From an uncultured Candidatus Saccharibacteria bacterium (GTDB lineage: Bacteria > Patescibacteriota > Saccharimonadia > Saccharimonadales > Saccharimonadaceae), in the NCBI GenBank assembly GCA_947166125.1, contig CAMVCW010000001.1:62001-126000 (forward strand): 64,000 nt of DNA. Reading direction: 5' to 3'. The notes beneath the pieces are model-generated. The model saw only the letters and a program-made list of their open reading frames with translations, did no database searches and was not told the origin of the DNA. Positions 4,480-57,500 of the stretch are shown in pieces. A program made the position numbers and the translations under genes. Numbering within the stretch: the stretch's first letter is position 1; every line of letters begins with the position of its first letter.

Positions 4480-4594
4480 ATCTTAATTTAAGCCTCTCTC
4501 GGGGCGCGTCCGCCCGGCCCGTCGCCACGGGCGGGCGGCGCTACTTCTCGCCTTGCCAGGCTCCGAACCCCCTTCGAGGGGCTTAAATTAAAAT
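4480..4594. repeat. Palindromic element, intergenic copy (family copy C)
   Basis: Outer arms ATCTTAATTTAAGCCTCTC / GAGGGGCTTAAATTAAAAT; internal GCCCGT-CGCC-ACGGGC hairpin equivalent to those at 7493-7505 and 21365-21380; about 115 bp. Confidence 0.6.
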
Positions 4595-6675: not shown

Positions 6676-9402
6676 TTAGATTAACTCGAGCTGAGATTTG
6701 AGGCGAGAGATAAGGGATTCTTTCTCTTTGATTTGATCTTTTGTCTCTTTAACGAGGTGTTCTGGGGCTTTTTCTACATAATTAGGGTTGGCCATGCGAG
6801 CATTTAATGCGTCCAGCTCACGGCCGACAGAGAGAATTTTTTCAGTAAGAGCATCTTTATACTCTGTAACAACCTTTTCGGGAACGTCTAAATAAAGCTC
6901 GTGATTTGCGAGTGCAAGCCTTAGGCCCCGTGGATGACCGTCTAAGGCGTTGATGGCTGGAACCTTGGTAAGAGTGCGGATGAGCAGTAAATTATCCTCT
7001 ACGAGGCTATCATTGCCATATAATAGGCTGTATTTTTTAGCATTATTGGTGCCTGGAAGGGCCTGCAAAGTGCCTCTAACCTCGGACACGACCGAGATTA
7101 GGCTTTCGAACTCGGCGGCGCTGATAGGGTCAAATTTAAGCTTATTTGGCCATTTTGCGGTAGCGATAAAGCCGTCTGTCCAGGAAAGATTTTGCCAAAT
7201 GGCCTCAGTAACAAATGGAGCAAACGGATGTAGAGCAATAAGGATCGTCTCTAAAGTCTGTTTTAAGAGACTAGTATTTTTGAAGATTTTTTGACTCTCT
7301 AGGAACCAGTCGGCATATTTATCCCAGATAGTCTGATATAAGGCCTCTACAGCTTCAGCAAAACGGTAGTTTTTCATTGAACTCTCTACTTGATTGAGGC
7401 AATCGTTGATTTCGCGGCAAATCCAGTCTTCGCCCATGTGGTCAGTGGCGTAAGATGACGAGATGCGTTCTTCTCGGAACGCTTCGTCGCGCCCGTCGTT
7501 ACGGGGCTCCTCGCTCCGTACGCTCCCGTCGTCGCGTATGCTCCTCGAAGAAGCATTCTTGTCATCATCTACTATCGATTGAATTAATCGGGAGATGTTC
7601 CAGAGTTTGTTGCAGAGATTGCGGCCGGCAATGACACTGTTTTCGCTGAAAGCCTGATTCATGCCGGCGGAACGACCTCTTAAGATACCAAGACGAAAAG
7701 CATCTGAGCCATATTTGGCGACAAGATCCATAGGATTAATGACATTGCCTTTGGATTTGCTCATTTTTTGGCCATGAGCATCCAATACGAGACCATGGAG
7801 GTAAACTTCTTTAAACGGTACTTCGCCAGTGACATAGAGCCCCATCATGATCATGCGGGCAACCCAGGCGAATAATATGTCGGCGCCAGTCTCCATGACG
7901 TTTAGCGGGTAATAGGGGTTGAAGTTATCTTTTGACCAATTAGTACAAACAATTGGCCAATGGCTAGAAGAGAACCAGGTATCAAAAGTGTCTTCATCGC
8001 GGACATATTTTACGCCGGCAACTTCAATCTCTTTTAGGTGAGTACGACGATCAAAGATCCAATCTGGTTCATCGGTGGCAGCGTCGGTAACGCGGCGGAA
8101 CATCGGAATAGCAATGCCCCAAGGGATTTGGCGAGAAATGTTCCAATCTCTGAGGTTCTTGAGATAATTAATAAGAACTTTTTGCTTGTTTGCCGGATGG
8201 AACTTGATTTCGTTTTTCTCTAGATGCTTGATGGCGACACTGGCTAGTTTTTCAACGTCTACAAACCATTGTTCTTTGAGCATAGGCTCGAGTACGGTGC
8301 CACATTTGTAGCAGTGTGCCACGGAGTGAACGAGCTGTTTTTCGCCCCTGAAGAGATCAGCAGCTTTGAGATCTTTTAAGACTTGCTTGCGACATTCAGC
8401 AGTGGTGAGACCATAGTATTTTTCTGGGACGTTAACCATGGTGCCATTCTCGGCAATTACCTTGATGCGTTCAAGATTATGGCGCTCGCCCACCTCAAAG
8501 TCATCAAAGTCGTGAGCCGGGGTGATTTTTACGGCGCCGGTGCCATATTCTGGATCGGCATGTTCGTCGGCAATAATGGGGATTTCTTTATTAGTGAGTG
8601 GAAGATGGACGGTTTTGCCGATTAGATCTTTGTAACGCTTATCTTCGGGGTTAACAGCCACAGCAGCATCACCAAAAAGGGTTTCAGGACGAGTGGTAGA
8701 AACAATAATTTCGCCACCATCGTAAGTGTAAGCGATATCCCAAAGAGTACCTTTTTCGTCTTTGTGTTCTACCTCAATATCGGCGAAGGCGGTCTGGTGC
8801 TTCGGACAGAAATTAACGAGTTTTTCACCCCGGTAAATCATGCCATCATTCCACATTTTTTCAAAGGTGGTGTAGACGCGATCTATGACGTTTTCATCCA
8901 AGGTGAAAGTGAGGTCATTCCAGGAACAAGAGGCGCCAAGAGCACGGAGCTGCAACTCCATGTTGCCACGCTGCTCAGCGACAAAATCCCATACACGAGC
9001 ATAAAGCTCGTTGCGATCGTATTCGAAACGAGTGTGGCCTTGTTTTTCTAGATTGCGCTCATAGACGACCCAGGTTTCAAAGCCAGCATGATCTGCACCG
9101 GGGATATACCAAGTAGATTTGCCTTTTAGGCGGTAGTAGCGAGTAAGAGAATCTTCTAGCGCAATAGTAAGACCGTGGCCTATATGAAGGTTGCCGTTGG
9201 CGTTGGGCGGGGGCATGACGATGCTATAAGTATTTTTATTGTCGCGATCATCTTTGCCGTCACCGTTATTATCTACCGGCACGGTAGGGGTAGACGGGGC
9301 GAAAATATCGCTGGCCTCCCAAGCACCGTAAATATCACTTTCATATTCTCCTGGTTCGTAACTCGATGCAAATTTCATTTTGTTTTCCTCTTGCTGTTTC
9401 AT
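6676..9402 (-). CDS. valS: Valyl-tRNA synthetase with internal palindromic-element-encoded insert
   Basis: PPPNANGNLHIGHG, GADHAGFETWVVYE, KMSKSKGNVINP; C-terminal coiled coil. Confidence 0.93.
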   Translation of the reverse strand: MKQQEENKMKFASSYEPGEYESDIYGAWEASDIFAPSTPTVPVDNNGDGKDDRDNKNTYSIVMPPPNANGNLHIGHGLTIALEDSLTRYYRLKGKSTWYIPGADHAGFETWVVYERNLEKQGHTRFEYDRNELYARVWDFVAEQRGNMELQLRALGASCSWNDLTFTLDENVIDRVYTTFEKMWNDGMIYRGEKLVNFCPKHQTAFADIEVEHKDEKGTLWDIAYTYDGGEIIVSTTRPETLFGDAAVAVNPEDKRYKDLIGKTVHLPLTNKEIPIIADEHADPEYGTGAVKITPAHDFDDFEVGERHNLERIKVIAENGTMVNVPEKYYGLTTAECRKQVLKDLKAADLFRGEKQLVHSVAHCYKCGTVLEPMLKEQWFVDVEKLASVAIKHLEKNEIKFHPANKQKVLINYLKNLRDWNISRQIPWGIAIPMFRRVTDAATDEPDWIFDRRTHLKEIEVAGVKYVRDEDTFDTWFSSSHWPIVCTNWSKDNFNPYYPLNVMETGADILFAWVARMIMMGLYVTGEVPFKEVYLHGLVLDAHGQKMSKSKGNVINPMDLVAKYGSDAFRLGILRGRSAGMNQAFSENSVIAGRNLCNKLWNISRLIQSIVDDDKNASSRSIRDDGSVRSEEPRNDGRDEAFREERISSSYATDHMGEDWICREINDCLNQVESSMKNYRFAEAVEALYQTIWDKYADWFLESQKIFKNTSLLKQTLETILIALHPFAPFVTEAIWQNLSWTDGFIATAKWPNKLKFDPISAAEFESLISVVSEVRGTLQALPGTNNAKKYSLLYGNDSLVEDNLLLIRTLTKVPAINALDGHPRGLRLALANHELYLDVPEKVVTEYKDALTEKILSVGRELDALNARMANPNYVEKAPEHLVKETKDQIKEKESLISRLKSQLELI
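7454..7566. repeat. Palindromic element inserted in frame inside valS (family copy A)
   Basis: Arms GATGACGAGATGCGTTCTTC / GAAGAAGCATTCTTGTCATC; core CTCGGAACGCTTCG...CCCGTCGTTACGGGG...TATGCTCCTCGA homologous to 21328-21442; encodes GSVRSEEPRNDGRDEAFREE. Confidence 0.75.
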
Positions 9403-21047: not shown

Positions 21048-22325
21048 CTATTTTGAAGAGAGAATTACAAGATTTTCGATATGTGGAGTACGAGGGAAGA
21101 AATTGAAAGTTTTAATTTCTTCTATCTCGTATTTATCTAACAACATTTTAACATCGCGGGCCTGGGTGGCGGGATTACAAGAAAGATAAATAATTTTTTG
21201 CGGTGTGGTTTCTAATAATTTATCTATTAGTTTGGCGTCGCAGCCGGCACGTGGAGGATCAAGGATGACAGTCTGGTTGAAGTTGACAAAATTTAATGCG
21301 TCTTCAGATTTGGCTAGGATTGGTTTAGGTAAGGCGACATCACTTCTTCGGAACGCTCCCTCTCGCCCGCCGTTGCGGGGTTCGGTCGCTCCGTAATCAC
21401 CCCGTCGGTGATTATGCTCCTCAGAAGTGGTATCGCCTTGCCCTGTGAAGCAATTCCTCTCCAATTCCTTATAAGCACTTTTGTCAACTTCAACCAGAGT
21501 GAGTTGCCGGTCCCGGGCGATGGAAAGACCGATGGTGCCGACGCCGGCGTAGAGGTCTAAAACATTATCTGTGTTAATGTGCTTTTTTATTTCTTTGAGA
21601 GCTAGTTCGTAAACAGGTAAATTGATCTGAAAAAAGCCATTAGGCGAGTAAGAATAGGTTTGCCCCAAAATATCATCGGTGAGATTTTTAAAAACTGGGT
21701 GGGGTTTGTGGTTTTCGTAAAGACCGCCGGAGACTTCGCCGTTTTGATTACAACGAAGTAGGATTGACTGATACTTACGAGCCTCTTCATGTCTACTATT
21801 TAAATCATTAATAATTCGTTGGGCGGCGGCGAATATTTCAGGACACTCAATAGAAGAAGTATTAATAGGTATTTTGCGATGTGAGCCACGAAGATGAAAA
21901 GCAAGCTCAATAAGCTCTTTTTTATTATTCCAATATAGAGCATACTCCATTTTGTTGCGGTAATAATATGGGTTGTTGTCAGTAAAAATATGCGTCCTAG
22001 TTATATCTATTTGATGCTCGCGGAAAATTTCTACCACAAGTTCGGTTTTAAGCTGATTTTCATAGTCCCAGTCAATAATTTGCCAAGGTGAAGTAGATAA
22101 AAAACAAGGATCTTTGGGATTGGTGCGAAATTCTGACGGATTTTCTATTTTAGTAGCAATAGCTTCATAGTAATGAGATTTTTTCTTGACAATCTCATAT
22201 TCAGAAACATCTTCGCCAGGAAGAGCATTCCAGAAAAAGATTTTACGACCATCTTCTAGAGTACCTAAAGCTTGACCGCCAGGAATAACTTTATCTACAT
22301 GAACCATTTTATCATTATAACACAA
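21048..22325 (-). CDS. TrmA/RlmD-type 23S rRNA or tRNA (uracil-5-)-methyltransferase with palindromic-element insert
   Basis: NGFFQINLPVYELAL, LDLYAGVGTIGLSIAR, VILDPPRAGCD, IIYLSCNPATQARD. Confidence 0.88.
   Translation of the reverse strand: MCYNDKMVHVDKVIPGGQALGTLEDGRKIFFWNALPGEDVSEYEIVKKKSHYYEAIATKIENPSEFRTNPKDPCFLSTSPWQIIDWDYENQLKTELVVEIFREHQIDITRTHIFTDNNPYYYRNKMEYALYWNNKKELIELAFHLRGSHRKIPINTSSIECPEIFAAAQRIINDLNSRHEEARKYQSILLRCNQNGEVSGGLYENHKPHPVFKNLTDDILGQTYSYSPNGFFQINLPVYELALKEIKKHINTDNVLDLYAGVGTIGLSIARDRQLTLVEVDKSAYKELERNCFTGQGDTTSEEHNHRRGDYGATEPRNGGREGAFRRSDVALPKPILAKSEDALNFVNFNQTVILDPPRAGCDAKLIDKLLETTPQKIIYLSCNPATQARDVKMLLDKYEIEEIKTFNFFPRTPHIENLVILSSK
21328..21442. repeat. Palindromic element inserted in frame inside methyltransferase gene (family copy B)
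   Basis: Arms GGTAAGGCGACATCACTTCT / AGAAGTGGTATCGCCTTGCC; core TTCGGAACGCT...CCCGCCGTTGCGGGG...TAATCACC-CCGTC-GGTGATTA...TATGCTCCTC; encodes GDYGATEPRNGGREGAFRRS. Confidence 0.75.
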
Positions 22326-43625: not shown

Positions 43626-44786
43626 ATGGGCGGTAAAGTAAAAATTTCTGTTTTGGTGCCGATTTATAACGTAGAGGAGTTTTTGTCGGAGTGTTTGGAT
43701 AGTTTGGTTAATCAAACTTTAAAAGATATTGAAATTATATGTATCAATGATGGTTCGACGGACGGTTCTTTGGAAATTGTAAAAAAATATGCGCGCAAGG
43801 ATAAGCGTATTATAATTATCGATAAGAACAACTCGGGATATGGCGATTCGATGAATCAAGGGCTTGCTAAAGCGACTGGGGAATATGTGGGAATTGTAGA
43901 ACCAGATGATTTTATTGATTTGGATGCGTATGAGACAATGTATAATCTTGCTAAGAAGAATGATGTAGAAGTAGTAAAAGGTAATTTTTATGAATATTAT
44001 GGGGATAAAAAGATCGATAAAGGAATAAGCGACCTTTTCTTAATTGAAAATATTGGTAAGGTGGTGGATCCAAGAATGCAGAGAGAAATATTTTATCAGC
44101 CGCCATGTATTTGGGCTGGAATCTATAAAAATGAATTTTTACGAAAGAATAAAATTGACTTTTTGCCAACTCCAGGTGCGGCTTATCAAGATGCTGGCTT
44201 TAATTTTAAAGTATGGGCAATGGCACGGAGGGTATATTTTGTGAGACGCGCATTTCTACATTATCGCCAAGATAATGCCAATTCATCGGTAAAAGATGTG
44301 GGGAAAGTTTATTGTGTTAAAGATGAGCATGATTCAATAGAAGAGTTTCTGAAGAAAAATGATTTATTGGGCGAATTAGGATCAGTAGCGTTTACGTGTC
44401 GATTTGGTGGGTATGTATGGAATTTGCATAGATTAAAGTTCCGGCCAGCGATGGAATTTGCGAAGACGGTTAGACGTGATTATAAGAGGGCAAAAAATGC
44501 TGGCTATTTGGATATAAAAAAATTAGACGATACCGGACGACATAATGTGCGGATAATGGCGGTGAAACATCCTCGATTGTATGTATGTCTTCGACCATTT
44601 CACGATTTGAAGAATTCGATGAAGCCGACATTGTCAAAGATAATGAAAATGGTTTTACCACGATATCGACAGAGATTGAGAACAATCGATGCACTGTTAC
44701 GATTGAAGGATGCCCAAGATGAGCTATCTGTGAAAATATCGAAGCTTGAATCGAAAATAGAGGGAGAGGAAAAGGATGGTTGCTAA
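43626..44786 (+). CDS. Glycosyltransferase family 2
   Basis: ISVLVPIYNVEEFLSECLDSLVNQTLKDIEIICINDGSTDGS. Confidence 0.93.
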   Translation: MGGKVKISVLVPIYNVEEFLSECLDSLVNQTLKDIEIICINDGSTDGSLEIVKKYARKDKRIIIIDKNNSGYGDSMNQGLAKATGEYVGIVEPDDFIDLDAYETMYNLAKKNDVEVVKGNFYEYYGDKKIDKGISDLFLIENIGKVVDPRMQREIFYQPPCIWAGIYKNEFLRKNKIDFLPTPGAAYQDAGFNFKVWAMARRVYFVRRAFLHYRQDNANSSVKDVGKVYCVKDEHDSIEEFLKKNDLLGELGSVAFTCRFGGYVWNLHRLKFRPAMEFAKTVRRDYKRAKNAGYLDIKKLDDTGRHNVRIMAVKHPRLYVCLRPFHDLKNSMKPTLSKIMKMVLPRYRQRLRTIDALLRLKDAQDELSVKISKLESKIEGEEKDGC

Positions 44787-45885
44787 AGTAACAGTAATAG
44801 TACCAGTGTATAATGGGGCTGAATCGGTTGGAAGTTGCCTTGATAATCTAATAAAACAGACCTTAAAAGAAATTGAAATTGTGTGCGTGAATGATGGTTC
44901 GACCGATAATTCGTTGGACGTAATTGGGGATTATATCGAAAAAGATAAAAGGATAAAGGTAGTATCGCAAAAGAATGGAGGATTGTCGGCGGCGCGAAAT
45001 ACAGGTATTGAGAATACGAAAACACCATTTGTGATGTTTTGCGATTGTGATGATATATTCGCATTAGATATGTGCGAGAAGATGGTAGAAGCGATAGAAC
45101 AAAATGAGACAGATGTGGCAGCATGTGGAACTGAGGTGGAATATGAGGCACATGTGGAAATTTCGGATAGTGATACAAATTATTATAGATTGAAATTTGC
45201 AGGAAAAAATTATATTAACGATGAAGTAACAGCAAAAACTGATGTTTCGGTGTGTGATAAGATTTTTCGGATGGATCTGATAAAAAAATATGGGATTAGG
45301 TTTCCGAAAAAATTAAATAATGAAGATTACTATTTTTATAATGCATATATGAGTGTTGCGCAAACGATTTTCTTTGTGAACAGGAAGATGTATAAATATA
45401 TTCGGCGTGAGGGATCGATTATGTCGGAGAACTTTGAAGCGAATAAATATTCACCAGATCATTTGTTAGTGGCGAAGAAATTGTTTGCGTTTTATAAGAA
45501 AAATGGATTTTTAAAAATGCATACGGATTTATTTTGGAATCAATTTTCTGAGAGTTTTTGGTTTTCGTATGAACATTCGGCGAAAAAATATCGTAAAGAT
45601 ATAGAAAAGTTAGCAAAGAGGTTTATTGAAGTCAACTACGATAAATATGAACCGATGACACCAAGAGTGAAACGACTTGTATATATGATAAGATATAGTG
45701 ACTTACTTCATAAGATATGGAGAGCGTTAAAAGGGAAAATAGCTAGAGTTTATAGAAAAGTAAATATAGCCTATAAGCAACAGGATTATATTAATAGGAA
45801 TATTGATAAAATAGAGCAGGAAACATATGTATTAACGGAAAAATTAGAAAATTTAATTGGAAGGATTAAAGATGAAGATAAATGA
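44776..45885 (+). CDS. Glycosyltransferase family 2
   Basis: VTVIVPVYNGAESVGSCLDNLIKQTLKEIEIVCVNDGSTDNS. Confidence 0.93.
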   Translation: MVAKVTVIVPVYNGAESVGSCLDNLIKQTLKEIEIVCVNDGSTDNSLDVIGDYIEKDKRIKVVSQKNGGLSAARNTGIENTKTPFVMFCDCDDIFALDMCEKMVEAIEQNETDVAACGTEVEYEAHVEISDSDTNYYRLKFAGKNYINDEVTAKTDVSVCDKIFRMDLIKKYGIRFPKKLNNEDYYFYNAYMSVAQTIFFVNRKMYKYIRREGSIMSENFEANKYSPDHLLVAKKLFAFYKKNGFLKMHTDLFWNQFSESFWFSYEHSAKKYRKDIEKLAKRFIEVNYDKYEPMTPRVKRLVYMIRYSDLLHKIWRALKGKIARVYRKVNIAYKQQDYINRNIDKIEQETYVLTEKLENLIGRIKDEDK

Positions 45886-54321: not shown

Positions 54322-54933
54322 ATGGTTTGGAAAAATGATCAAGTTTCCGAAAGGGAGACGGAGGAGATTTTGAAAGTCGCTAGAGGATGTCTTGCGGTAG
54401 AGGGGGACTTTGTGGAACTAGGGTGTTATAAAGGCGATACATCACTGCTTTTGGCAGAAGTTCTACGGGATTTTAATACTAAACTTGTGGAAAAACCTGT
54501 GGAAAACTCTGTGAAAAAGTTATGGATTTATGATTCTTTTGAGGGGTTACCAGAGAAAAGTGTGGCGGACGAGTCGGCACTTGGACAAGATTTTAAAGAC
54601 GGAGAGTTATTAGTGACGAAAAGGGAGGTCAAGGAGAGATTTTTGCGGGCGGGATTACCGGTACCAGTTATTAAAAAAGCGTGGTTTAAGGATTTGGATG
54701 AAGCGGATCTTCCGGATAAGATTGCTTTTGCATTTTTAGATGGCGATTTTTACGAATCCATTAAAGATTCTTTAAAATTGATTGAAGGTGAAATAATGCA
54801 AGGTGGAGTGATTTTGGTGCATGACTATTATAATCCAGCCTTGCCGGGGGTAATGAAGGCGGTAGATGAGTGGCTAGAGGACAAAAAATATAAATTAGAA
54901 CAATATGAGAGTTTAATAATAATACGTCAGTAG
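54322..54933 (+). CDS. TylF/macrocin-O-methyltransferase-like SAM methyltransferase
   Basis: GDFVELGCYKGDTSLLLAEVL, WIYDSFEGLPEK, FAFLDGDFYESIKDSLKLI, VILVHDYYNPALPGVMKAVDEW. Confidence 0.8.
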   Translation: MVWKNDQVSERETEEILKVARGCLAVEGDFVELGCYKGDTSLLLAEVLRDFNTKLVEKPVENSVKKLWIYDSFEGLPEKSVADESALGQDFKDGELLVTKREVKERFLRAGLPVPVIKKAWFKDLDEADLPDKIAFAFLDGDFYESIKDSLKLIEGEIMQGGVILVHDYYNPALPGVMKAVDEWLEDKKYKLEQYESLIIIRQ

Positions 54934-54946
54934 TATAATAAAAGTT

Positions 54947-55516
54947 ATGAGTACTCGGCTGACAAAAAGGAAGCTGGAGGATGCTCGTTTCCGAAAAAAT
55001 GAAGAGGCCATATTAAAGGTCTTTTTTGATTGTGGGCGGGATAGATTAAGTGTAACGGAGTTGGCGAGAAAGGCCGATGTGGATAAGGCGACTTTTTACC
55101 GTCATCATAAAACAATATATGGAATCGTGACCGATTATGAAGAATATATTCTGATAGAATATGAGAGTTTTATGTGTGAAATGTTGAACAAAAATAACGT
55201 ATCTATAAGGGTAATTTATTATAGATTGTTAATTTTTATTCTAAAAAATCAAGAAGCTTTTGCAATTTTTCTAGAAAATCAGAGGATGACGATAATTATG
55301 AAAATGGTTGGAGTTTTGGTGCCGAAACTGAAAGAAGAATATAAATTGTATGGTAATTTGGAGAGGGTATTTAGGGTGTATATAGGTGAAATTGTGGGAT
55401 TGATCGAAGAATGGATCGAAAGAGGTTTTAGAGAAGATGAGATGATGGAGTTACTTGATAATATAATGTATTTAACTAAAACGATAAGATTGAGGTTATT
55501 ACCACTCATAAATTAG
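54947..55516 (+). CDS. TetR/AcrR-like transcriptional regulator
   Basis: RLSVTELARKADVDKATFYRHHKTIYGIVTDYEEYI HTH. Confidence 0.8.
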   Translation: MSTRLTKRKLEDARFRKNEEAILKVFFDCGRDRLSVTELARKADVDKATFYRHHKTIYGIVTDYEEYILIEYESFMCEMLNKNNVSIRVIYYRLLIFILKNQEAFAIFLENQRMTIIMKMVGVLVPKLKEEYKLYGNLERVFRVYIGEIVGLIEEWIERGFREDEMMELLDNIMYLTKTIRLRLLPLIN

Positions 55517-55539
55517 CACTCGGGGGTTGTAAGTGCTAA
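55513..55539. promoter_or_regulatory. CIRCE element (HrcA operator)
   Basis: TTAGCACTC-N9-AAGTGCTAA immediately upstream of groES. Confidence 0.9.
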
Positions 55540-55576
55540 TTTTTGTGCTATAATAGGGGTAGAAAAGGAGAAAAAT

Positions 55577-55831
55577 ATGGCATTAAAACCGTTGAAAGAC
55601 AGAGTAGTGGCAAAAGTGGAAAAGCCATTAGAAAAAACAAAATCTGGAATATTATTGGGTGAAGCGAAGGAAAAACCGGCTTACGCAGTGGTAGAGTCGG
55701 TGGGGCCAGAAGTGAAGTCTGTAAAAAAGGATGACAAGATCGTCTACAAGGAGTATTCTACAACGGAAATAAAGATTGACGATGTAGACTACATTATCCT
55801 AAAAGAGGAAGACGTTTTGGCGACTTTATAG
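55577..55831 (+). CDS. groES: Co-chaperonin GroES
   Basis: MALKPLKDRVVAKVEKPLEKTKSGILLGEAKEKP; ~84 aa; precedes groEL. Confidence 0.95.
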   Translation: MALKPLKDRVVAKVEKPLEKTKSGILLGEAKEKPAYAVVESVGPEVKSVKKDDKIVYKEYSTTEIKIDDVDYIILKEEDVLATL

Positions 55832-55880
55832 GGATAAGTTGGTGGAAAAACCTGTGGAAAACTTTTAGAAGGAGAAAAAT

Positions 55881-57500
55881 ATGGCAAAGAAAATATATTA
55901 TGAAGCAGAAGCGCGCGAGAAAGTGCTGTCTGGCGCAAAACAATTGTATGATGCTGTAAAAGTGACATTTGGGCCAAAAGGCAAGAACGTGATAATCGAG
56001 AAAGAATATGGAGCGCCAGTGATTACACATGACGGGGTAACGGTGGCAGAGGCGGTGGAGCTTCCTAACAAGGACGAGGCTTTAGGTGAAGCGGTAGGTG
56101 CAAAATTGATTAAAACGGCAGCACAGAAATTAAACAAAGTTGCTGGTGATGGTACCACTACGGTGACGGTGCTAACATACAATATTTTAAACGAAGCAAA
56201 TAAACTAATCGCAGCTGGCGTGAACCCAATGGAGCTCAGGCGAGGAATTGAGAAAGCTGGCGCTGAAATTATTGCCGAAATTGATAAAATGGCTGAAAAG
56301 ATTGAAGGTGATGACAAAAAAGTGGCAGAAGTAGCGACGATTTCAGCGGGGGATGAGAAAATTGGTGAATTGATTGCTGAAGTAATTTCGAAGATTGGTA
56401 AAGACGGTGTAGTGACGGTGGAAGCTGGACAAGGTCTGGAAATGGAAGAAGAAATTGTAGAAGGATTTTCTTATGATAAGGGCTATTCCTCACCTTTCTT
56501 TGTGACCGATGTAAACCGGCAAGAGGCGATTTTTGAGAAGCCACTAGTGCTAATTACTGATAAAAAACTTTCGGCGGCAAGTGACATTTTGCCTATGTTG
56601 GAAAAAGTAGCGCAGACCGGCAAGAAGGATTTAGTGATTATTGCTGAAGAAGTGGAGGGTGAGGCTTTGTCGCTATTAGTACTAAATAAACTTAAAGGCG
56701 TATTCAATTCATTGGTGTTAAAAGCTCCGTCATTTGGGGATCGCCGCAAAGAAATTATGGAGGATATTGCGATTTTGACGGATGCGACGGTAGTTTCAGC
56801 TGATAAGGGATTGAAACTAGAAGAGGTGGGTCTGGAAGTATTAGGCTCTGTAGCTAAAGTGATCGCTACAAAAGACGAGACGACGATTATTAAGGGGGCC
56901 GGTGATGCTAAAGCTGTAGTAGCGAGGATTGAATTAATCCATGCGCAGGCTGAGATGGCAAAGTCTGATTATGAGAGAGAAGAATTTGAAAAGCGCGCAG
57001 CAGCATTGTCTGGTAAAGTAGCAGTGATTAAGGTAGGAGGCGCTACTGAAACGGAAATTGATGAGAAGAAATTCCGAGTGGACGATGCGGTAGCGGCTAC
57101 CAAGGCGGCGCTAGCTGAAGGTATTGTGGCTGGTGGTGGTGTGACGCTGGCGAACTTGGCTGGTAAATTAAAAGAAGAAGATAGTGGTACGAAGATTGTG
57201 AAAAATGCTCTAAGGGCACCGTTTATCCACATTATGGAAAATGCTGGGCTTAATGCACAAGCGTTGCTAGCTGAAGTAGAAAAATCTGGTAAGGCAGGAT
57301 TTGGTATAAATGTGATGGCACCGGAAAAAGGTTTGGTGGACCTTAAGAAGACTGGTGTAATTGATCCTGCAAAGGTGACGAAGGAAGCGGTGAAAAACGC
57401 AACTTCAATAGCGGCGACGGCGATTACGATGGGTGCATTGATATGTGAAATCCCGGAGGAGAAGCCGGCTGTTCCTGATATGGGTGGAATGGGGTATTAG
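55881..57500 (+). CDS. groEL: Chaperonin GroEL
   Basis: GPKGKNVIIEKEYGAPVITHDGVTVAEAVEL, VAGDGTTTVTVL, C-terminal PDMGGMGY. Confidence 0.98.
   Translation: MAKKIYYEAEAREKVLSGAKQLYDAVKVTFGPKGKNVIIEKEYGAPVITHDGVTVAEAVELPNKDEALGEAVGAKLIKTAAQKLNKVAGDGTTTVTVLTYNILNEANKLIAAGVNPMELRRGIEKAGAEIIAEIDKMAEKIEGDDKKVAEVATISAGDEKIGELIAEVISKIGKDGVVTVEAGQGLEMEEEIVEGFSYDKGYSSPFFVTDVNRQEAIFEKPLVLITDKKLSAASDILPMLEKVAQTGKKDLVIIAEEVEGEALSLLVLNKLKGVFNSLVLKAPSFGDRRKEIMEDIAILTDATVVSADKGLKLEEVGLEVLGSVAKVIATKDETTIIKGAGDAKAVVARIELIHAQAEMAKSDYEREEFEKRAAALSGKVAVIKVGGATETEIDEKKFRVDDAVAATKAALAEGIVAGGGVTLANLAGKLKEEDSGTKIVKNALRAPFIHIMENAGLNAQALLAEVEKSGKAGFGINVMAPEKGLVDLKKTGVIDPAKVTKEAVKNATSIAATAITMGALICEIPEEKPAVPDMGGMGY

Follow-up and report, generated by a model that had tools for sequence, protein, structure and literature searches.

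How does a palindrome of roughly 120 bases come to lie in frame inside a conserved RNA methyltransferase gene, and what keeps it there? The question is raised by the window, a stretch of 64,000 nucleotides from the genome of an uncultured Candidatus Saccharibacteria bacterium, in which a similar insert is also found in the gene for valine--tRNA ligase. Rickettsia and Wolbachia have hitherto been the main source of knowledge on protein-coding palindromic elements, and to our knowledge the way in which these move has never been settled. Here we surveyed the copies of this element, their structure, their host genes and their arms. The copy in the methyltransferase gene is probably a family-restricted, non-autonomous selfish palindromic element which is read through as a part of the host protein and whose arms are derived from the locus.

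The element and its host genes

The features of the window on which the analysis is based are all on the minus strand and are as follows.
21048..22325, host gene, RlmD/TrmA-type 23S rRNA/tRNA (uracil-C5) methyltransferase of 425 aa, reading frame unbroken across the insert
21326-21444, whole element in the methyltransferase gene, in frame
21348..21422, element core of 75 nt, GAGGAGC..GTTCCGA, from the covariance model match and covariation
21423..21444, 5′ arm (gene sense), locus-specific, from sequence and arm statistics
21326..21347, 3′ arm (gene sense), inverted complement of the 5′ arm, from sequence and arm statistics
6676..9402, host gene, valine--tRNA ligase (valS) of 908 aa, from NCBIfam
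7452..7568, second element copy, in frame in valS (core about 7474-7546), from covariance models
4486..4587, third element copy, intergenic and of a different subfamily, from covariance models

The methyltransferase reading frame runs through the insert as VEVDKSAYKELERNCF-TGQGDTTSEEHNHRRGDYGATEPRNGGREGAFRRSDVALPKP-ILAKSED in translation. It matches NCBIfam TIGR00479 (E 9.6e-49) and has SP_1029 RlmCD, RumA and TrmA as relatives in the PDB, and by these matches its predicted product is placed in the RlmD/RlmCD/TrmA group. The initial annotation had put the insert at 21328-21442, which is right to within a few bases of the core and arms listed above; the DNA and translation are as it described, and the valS insert does have the same orientation and frame as the methyltransferase insert. 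The covariance model R1, which was built in part from this copy itself, scores it at 109.8 bits (E 2.8e-28), and DNA searches independent of R1 found relatives elsewhere in the genome at 77-89% identity. In the AlphaFold model of the host the insert has a pLDDT of 31-38 and no secondary structure, in a model whose stretch 255-334 is left poor by a shallow alignment. The insert may be tolerated in the host protein because it falls in a loop which is variable and probably exposed at the surface.

No open reading frame of more than 34 codons spans the intergenic copy at 4486-4587 (GAAGGGGGTTCGGAGCCTGGCAAGGC..), and its arms are near-perfect over 15 bp or more. Two other observations were made in the window. 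A cluster of the repeat TGTGGAAAA, possibly DnaA-box-like, occupies 54480-55870, upstream of the open reading frame at 55881. The adjacent reading frames 43626-44786 and 44776-45885 look like tandem duplicated genes, possibly for glycosyltransferases, and two stretches of 77 nt in them, within 43698-44918, are similar to each other (75%).

Structure and covariation of the core

The core forms a three-way junction with strong covariation; it has a hypervariable stem P2, a conserved P3 (CCCGY-AACG-RCGGG) and three GA/GA internal loops. In gene sense the layout is arm - GA - GGAGC - stem P2 - ACGGAGC - GA - CC - GA - GCCCCGU AACG ACGGG CGC - GA - GG - GA - GCGUUCC - GA - arm′, and a filled site is about 115-123 nt long. 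The covariance model was started from five copies of family A and then extended. Across 118 distinct copies, 93.6% of the cells were paired against 63.8% in shuffled controls, cells with double changes numbered 1162 against 321, and pairing dropped to 36-48% in slid controls. In some copies second-level structured inserts (GCTCGCCCCTTGGGACGCGAATTGCCGAAGGCAAACGGGC; GGAACAACGAAGCGAGAGAGAACCAAGC..) are nested in the P3 loop (L140:1460-1593, L046, L087, L041; L028, L203, L204), and these likewise preserve the reading frame.

An ordinary hypervariable protein loop with chance palindromes would explain the differing loop length among orthologues, but the same covarying core is present in more than 100 places in unrelated genes and loops, so this explanation is already refuted by the repeat family and we give it practically no weight.

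A more serious alternative is a functional RNA element, for example an mRNA processing or regulatory site kept by pairing selection, for which the fit to the reading frame would be incidental. The strong covariation and the conserved GA/GA loops speak for it, as do the excess of sense-strand copies inside genes (96:22) and the far greater number of GU than AC cells in the core stems (P1b 62:3, P2 38:12), which suggests an RNA-level or fixed-wobble constraint beyond a pure DNA model. However, mismatches in the arms are nearly DNA-symmetric (GU:AC 83:63), which is unlike the expectation for RNA-selected helices, and maintenance of the arms by RNA pairing alone is unsupported. Antisense copies also occur, the core can lie either way round at one and the same site, the same loop lacks the element in many congeners, and no Rfam covariance model matches it; the sense excess, moreover, is explained at least partly by the hydrophilic sense frames described below. 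We consider a functional RNA unlikely.

Distribution in Saccharibacteria

The sequences used were public genomes, mostly metagenome-assembled, and several of the following counts depend on the model thresholds. In the own genome, which is 0.82 Mb in 8 contigs, the covariance model finds 15 copies. With R1, 34 of the 36 genomes of the genus were positive, the own genome counted, and none of 24 genomes from other families of the order matched. With the broader model R2, 86 of the 294 genomes searched in the class were positive. All of them lie in the family of the own genome, 70 within the genus and the other 16 spread over six further genera. Copies are especially numerous in G003, G005, G006 and G007. 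The relatives carry the label Candidatus Saccharibacteria and for the most part derive from metagenomes of the ruminant gut. Collections of phages, plasmids and viral contigs gave no match to the element, and carriage by such vehicles was rejected.

Further hairpin or insert types which neither R1 nor R2 matches were seen in the trmA loop (L066, L067, L070, L072, L075) and in the ValS loop (L104, L089, L085), and these are probably additional subfamilies.

Empty and filled sites

The element is multi-copy, interspersed and polymorphic between genomes that are about 95% identical. Depending on the orthologue of the methyltransferase, the loop contains this element, a member of another subfamily or an inverted remnant in decay, or has no insert; it is empty in L068, L069, L074, L172, L177 and L179, and in other congeners it is filled by family A, family B or several other hairpins. 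The earlier proposal of a multi-copy palindromic element, in frame in conserved genes, is borne out, and methyltransferase orthologues that lack it do exist. The valS insertion loop is likewise empty in congeners or occupied by other subfamilies, and ValS has at least three insertion sites. In ArgS, about half of 32 loci have a short loop of 27-30 residues between fixed motifs, and in most of the remaining ones many subfamilies fill it to 48-80 residues; it is empty in G090, which is 91% identical to the own genome over ArgS.

At sites in ValS, IleS and ArgS, the close relatives G084 and G085 (about 95% identical to the own genome) have elements that differ from those of the own genome. The Obg site is empty in the own genome and has 114 additional nt in G085, and the site in a TlyA-like gene is empty in the own genome and has 105 additional nt in G084. 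Net insertion size varies by site from 63 to 126 nt. On the question of which arm is native to the site, protein alignments to empty orthologues gave scattered gap placement in variable loops. Two loci show later stages: in L250 the in-frame copy has decayed, and L073 is a short hairpin consisting of arms only. A separate difference is a stretch of 332 bp with a small open reading frame (MKILQTPLSKQELIKESTNF..), which G085 has and the own genome lacks (L218:7229-7567 against L215 about 18146).

Reading frames and translation

Most of the copies examined (118 of 135) sit in uninterrupted open reading frames of at least 200 codons. In the own genome the hosts include RlmD/TrmA, ValS, IleS, ArgS, GyrA, PolA, UvrB, Obg, TatD and a cation ATPase, of which RlmD and ValS were named from NCBIfam and most others read off the translations. 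All 118 copies inside reading frames preserve the frame and have no stops. Copies in genes exceed intergenic ones beyond what random insertion with purging of out-of-frame cases would give, and this surplus may reflect easier deletion outside genes.

The frame of each copy inside a gene was counted relative to the P3 loop. In sense orientation frame 0 was used by 58 copies, frame 2 by 28 and frame 1 by a single copy, since a TAA or TGA in the P3 loop closes frame 1; in antisense orientation all three frames were used (14, 4 and 4 copies). The idea of one orientation and frame for the whole element, raised by the agreement of valS and the methyltransferase gene, is therefore not borne out, and a single common reading frame as a signature of the element is ruled out by these counts. 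Of the 118 copies, 72 use the open frame with the most hydrophilic reading, where 30 were expected, and the mean GRAVY of the used frames was -1.32, whereas open frames drawn at random give -0.74 (sd 0.07). Sense-strand copies numbered 96 where 49 were expected, a bias due at least in part to the hydrophilic sense frames. The cores have 4.07 open frames of six against 3.68 in shuffled cores, which is a modest excess.

Judged from the sequences, this reads as purifying selection on the translated product which filters the inserts for stop-free and hydrophilic frames. The agreement of valS and the methyltransferase gene may then come from such filtering after insertion, which favours stop-free, hydrophilic readings, and is no proof of a dedicated frame. 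The suggestion in the initial annotation that a selfish element is selected for a translatable frame stands as regards translation, which appears to be under selection.

Frame retention and the hydrophilicity filter argue for translation and against splicing or skipping. A sequence removed before or during translation, either intron-like or a byp-like insert skipped by the ribosome, is suggested by the likeness of a long hairpin in essential genes to the mitochondrial byp elements, and the arms would bring the flanks together. Yet all 118 copies in genes are free of stops, in frame and filtered for hydrophilicity, which would be needless if they were removed, and we hold this explanation to be very improbable.

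Locus-specific arms and inversion of the core

The arms have a median length of 23-24 pairs, with about 95% Watson-Crick pairing out to about 20 nt and less beyond. Swapping arms between copies destroys the pairing (mean score from 13.2 to 2.4). Between copies of the same genome with core identity of at least 0.9, outer-arm identity is 0.33, equal to that of unrelated copies and against a random value of 0.29. The outer arms are hence a property of the locus and not of the mobile core. The initial annotation had recognised neither this nor the use of the methyltransferase loop by several subfamilies. The inner portion of about 12 nt is weakly shared, with identity of 0.57 between near-identical cores. 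Pairs of 98% identity showed no compensated arm pairs, being too close to reveal arm correction, which on this evidence is slow or rare.

Between conserved arms the core is found in both orientations. The TatD copies in the own genome and in G003 are orthologous, with arms 81-83% identical in register, and their cores have an identity of 0.86 after reverse-complementing one of them and of 0.55 otherwise. In the G001 trmA gene the arms are retained and the loop contains the reverse complement of the 3′ end of the core, an inverted remnant. Template switching between inverted repeats is described as yielding homogenised arms and inverted spacers (PMC8604942; also PMC8794818); matched arms and flipped cores fit these known outcomes, from which we infer an origin by template switching.

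For the mobilising enzyme, searches were made for PF01797 (Y1) and PF00078 (reverse transcriptase), and neither provided a candidate. The Y1/RAYT transposase PF01797 is essentially absent (1 of 36 genomes, and not the own genome), which rejects RAYT as the driver. PF00078 occurs in 24 of the 36 genomes, but its presence does not follow the number of copies, and G003 with its 19 copies lacks it, so a reverse transcriptase was also rejected as the driver.

A classical MITE would carry the arms as terminal inverted repeats, with its transposase encoded elsewhere, and the arms would have diverged later under selection for pairing. The weak common pattern of the inner arms fits such a unit, as do the additional 111 to 126 nt at ValS site 1 and Obg, which would correspond to a unit carrying both arms, and the similar arms of Obg copy 2 of the own genome and the Obg copy of G084/G085. 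But the outer arms next to near-identical cores in one genome are unrelated, no conserved terminal inverted repeats that travel along with the element were found, no direct target duplication is evident, and the distribution of PF01797 and PF00078 given above offers no matching enzyme. A MITE is accordingly a rather doubtful explanation.

In the preferred reading, with arms derived from the locus, the core would arrive at a new site by a route which the model leaves unspecified. As a further step, about 20 nt of local sequence may be copied in inverted form by a fold-back template switch at insertion. Repeated template switching between the arms would then keep them matched and flip the core, and copies in genes would endure, since an imprecise deletion would disrupt the reading frame. 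Going further, it is possible, though we put it forward tentatively, that this is a new class of selfish element, consisting of the structured core alone, with arms built from the target by fold-back template switching and without a dedicated transposase. With arms built from the target, the hairpin of such a core-only element would be made by the locus and self-repairing, and within essential genes the core could invert and be swapped from arms to arms.

Significance

Saccharibacteria, with their reduced genomes, provide a system which is independent of these, abundant and polymorphic at present. With dozens of species, empty and filled sites, several subfamilies per loop and core inversions, the insertion, the formation or correction of arms and the filtering by translation can each be tested by comparison. 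Unrecognised inserts of 20-40 residues in essential enzymes of a widely studied group also bear on annotation and structure prediction. Because every copy is bounded by a matched pair of arms of its own, the element is a natural experiment on the addition of new pieces to essential proteins by selfish DNA and replication errors.

Comparison with known systems

A search of mainly openly accessible literature on Saccharibacteria and other candidate phyla radiation bacteria gave no account of such elements. The REP/RAYT and MITE families (Correia, ERIC, RUP) are likewise small non-autonomous hairpin repeats, but Correia, ERIC, RUP and REP are mostly intergenic and have fixed terminal repeats, with target duplications in RUP and Correia (PMC2229807), and the own Saccharibacteria genome has no RAYT-type transposase. 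The palindromic repeats with coding potential of Methanocaldococcus jannaschii and the PARCELs (cited in PMC2996958) are also protein-coding palindromes in housekeeping genes and differ in lineage and architecture.

The coding palindromes of Nematomorpha mitochondria (PMC6649704) are near-perfect inverted repeats in translated genes with arms kept identical, for which template switching or repeat conversion has been proposed (PMC6649704). No repeated core or interspersed family is described there, whereas the Saccharibacteria element is a mobile structured core between arms.

The closest likeness by description is to the palindromic elements of Rickettsia (RPE; Ogata et al. 2000, reviewed in PMC2229807) and Wolbachia (WPE), which are interspersed palindromes of 100-150 bp, in frame in conserved genes, solvent-exposed and with different groups at the same loci (PMC3767692). 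The Saccharibacteria element resembles them in palindromy, in size (a 75-nt core with two arms of about 20 nt), in dispersal and in-frame insertion in conserved genes (118 of 135 copies in uninterrupted reading frames, with empty orthologues) and in different groups at the same loci, and by analogy it would work like them. It differs in belonging to another phylum, in its three-way-junction core, in its locus-specific arms of about 20 bp and in core inversion; and while RPE palindromes are reported to lose repeat identity over time (PMC6649704), the Saccharibacteria arms stay matched.
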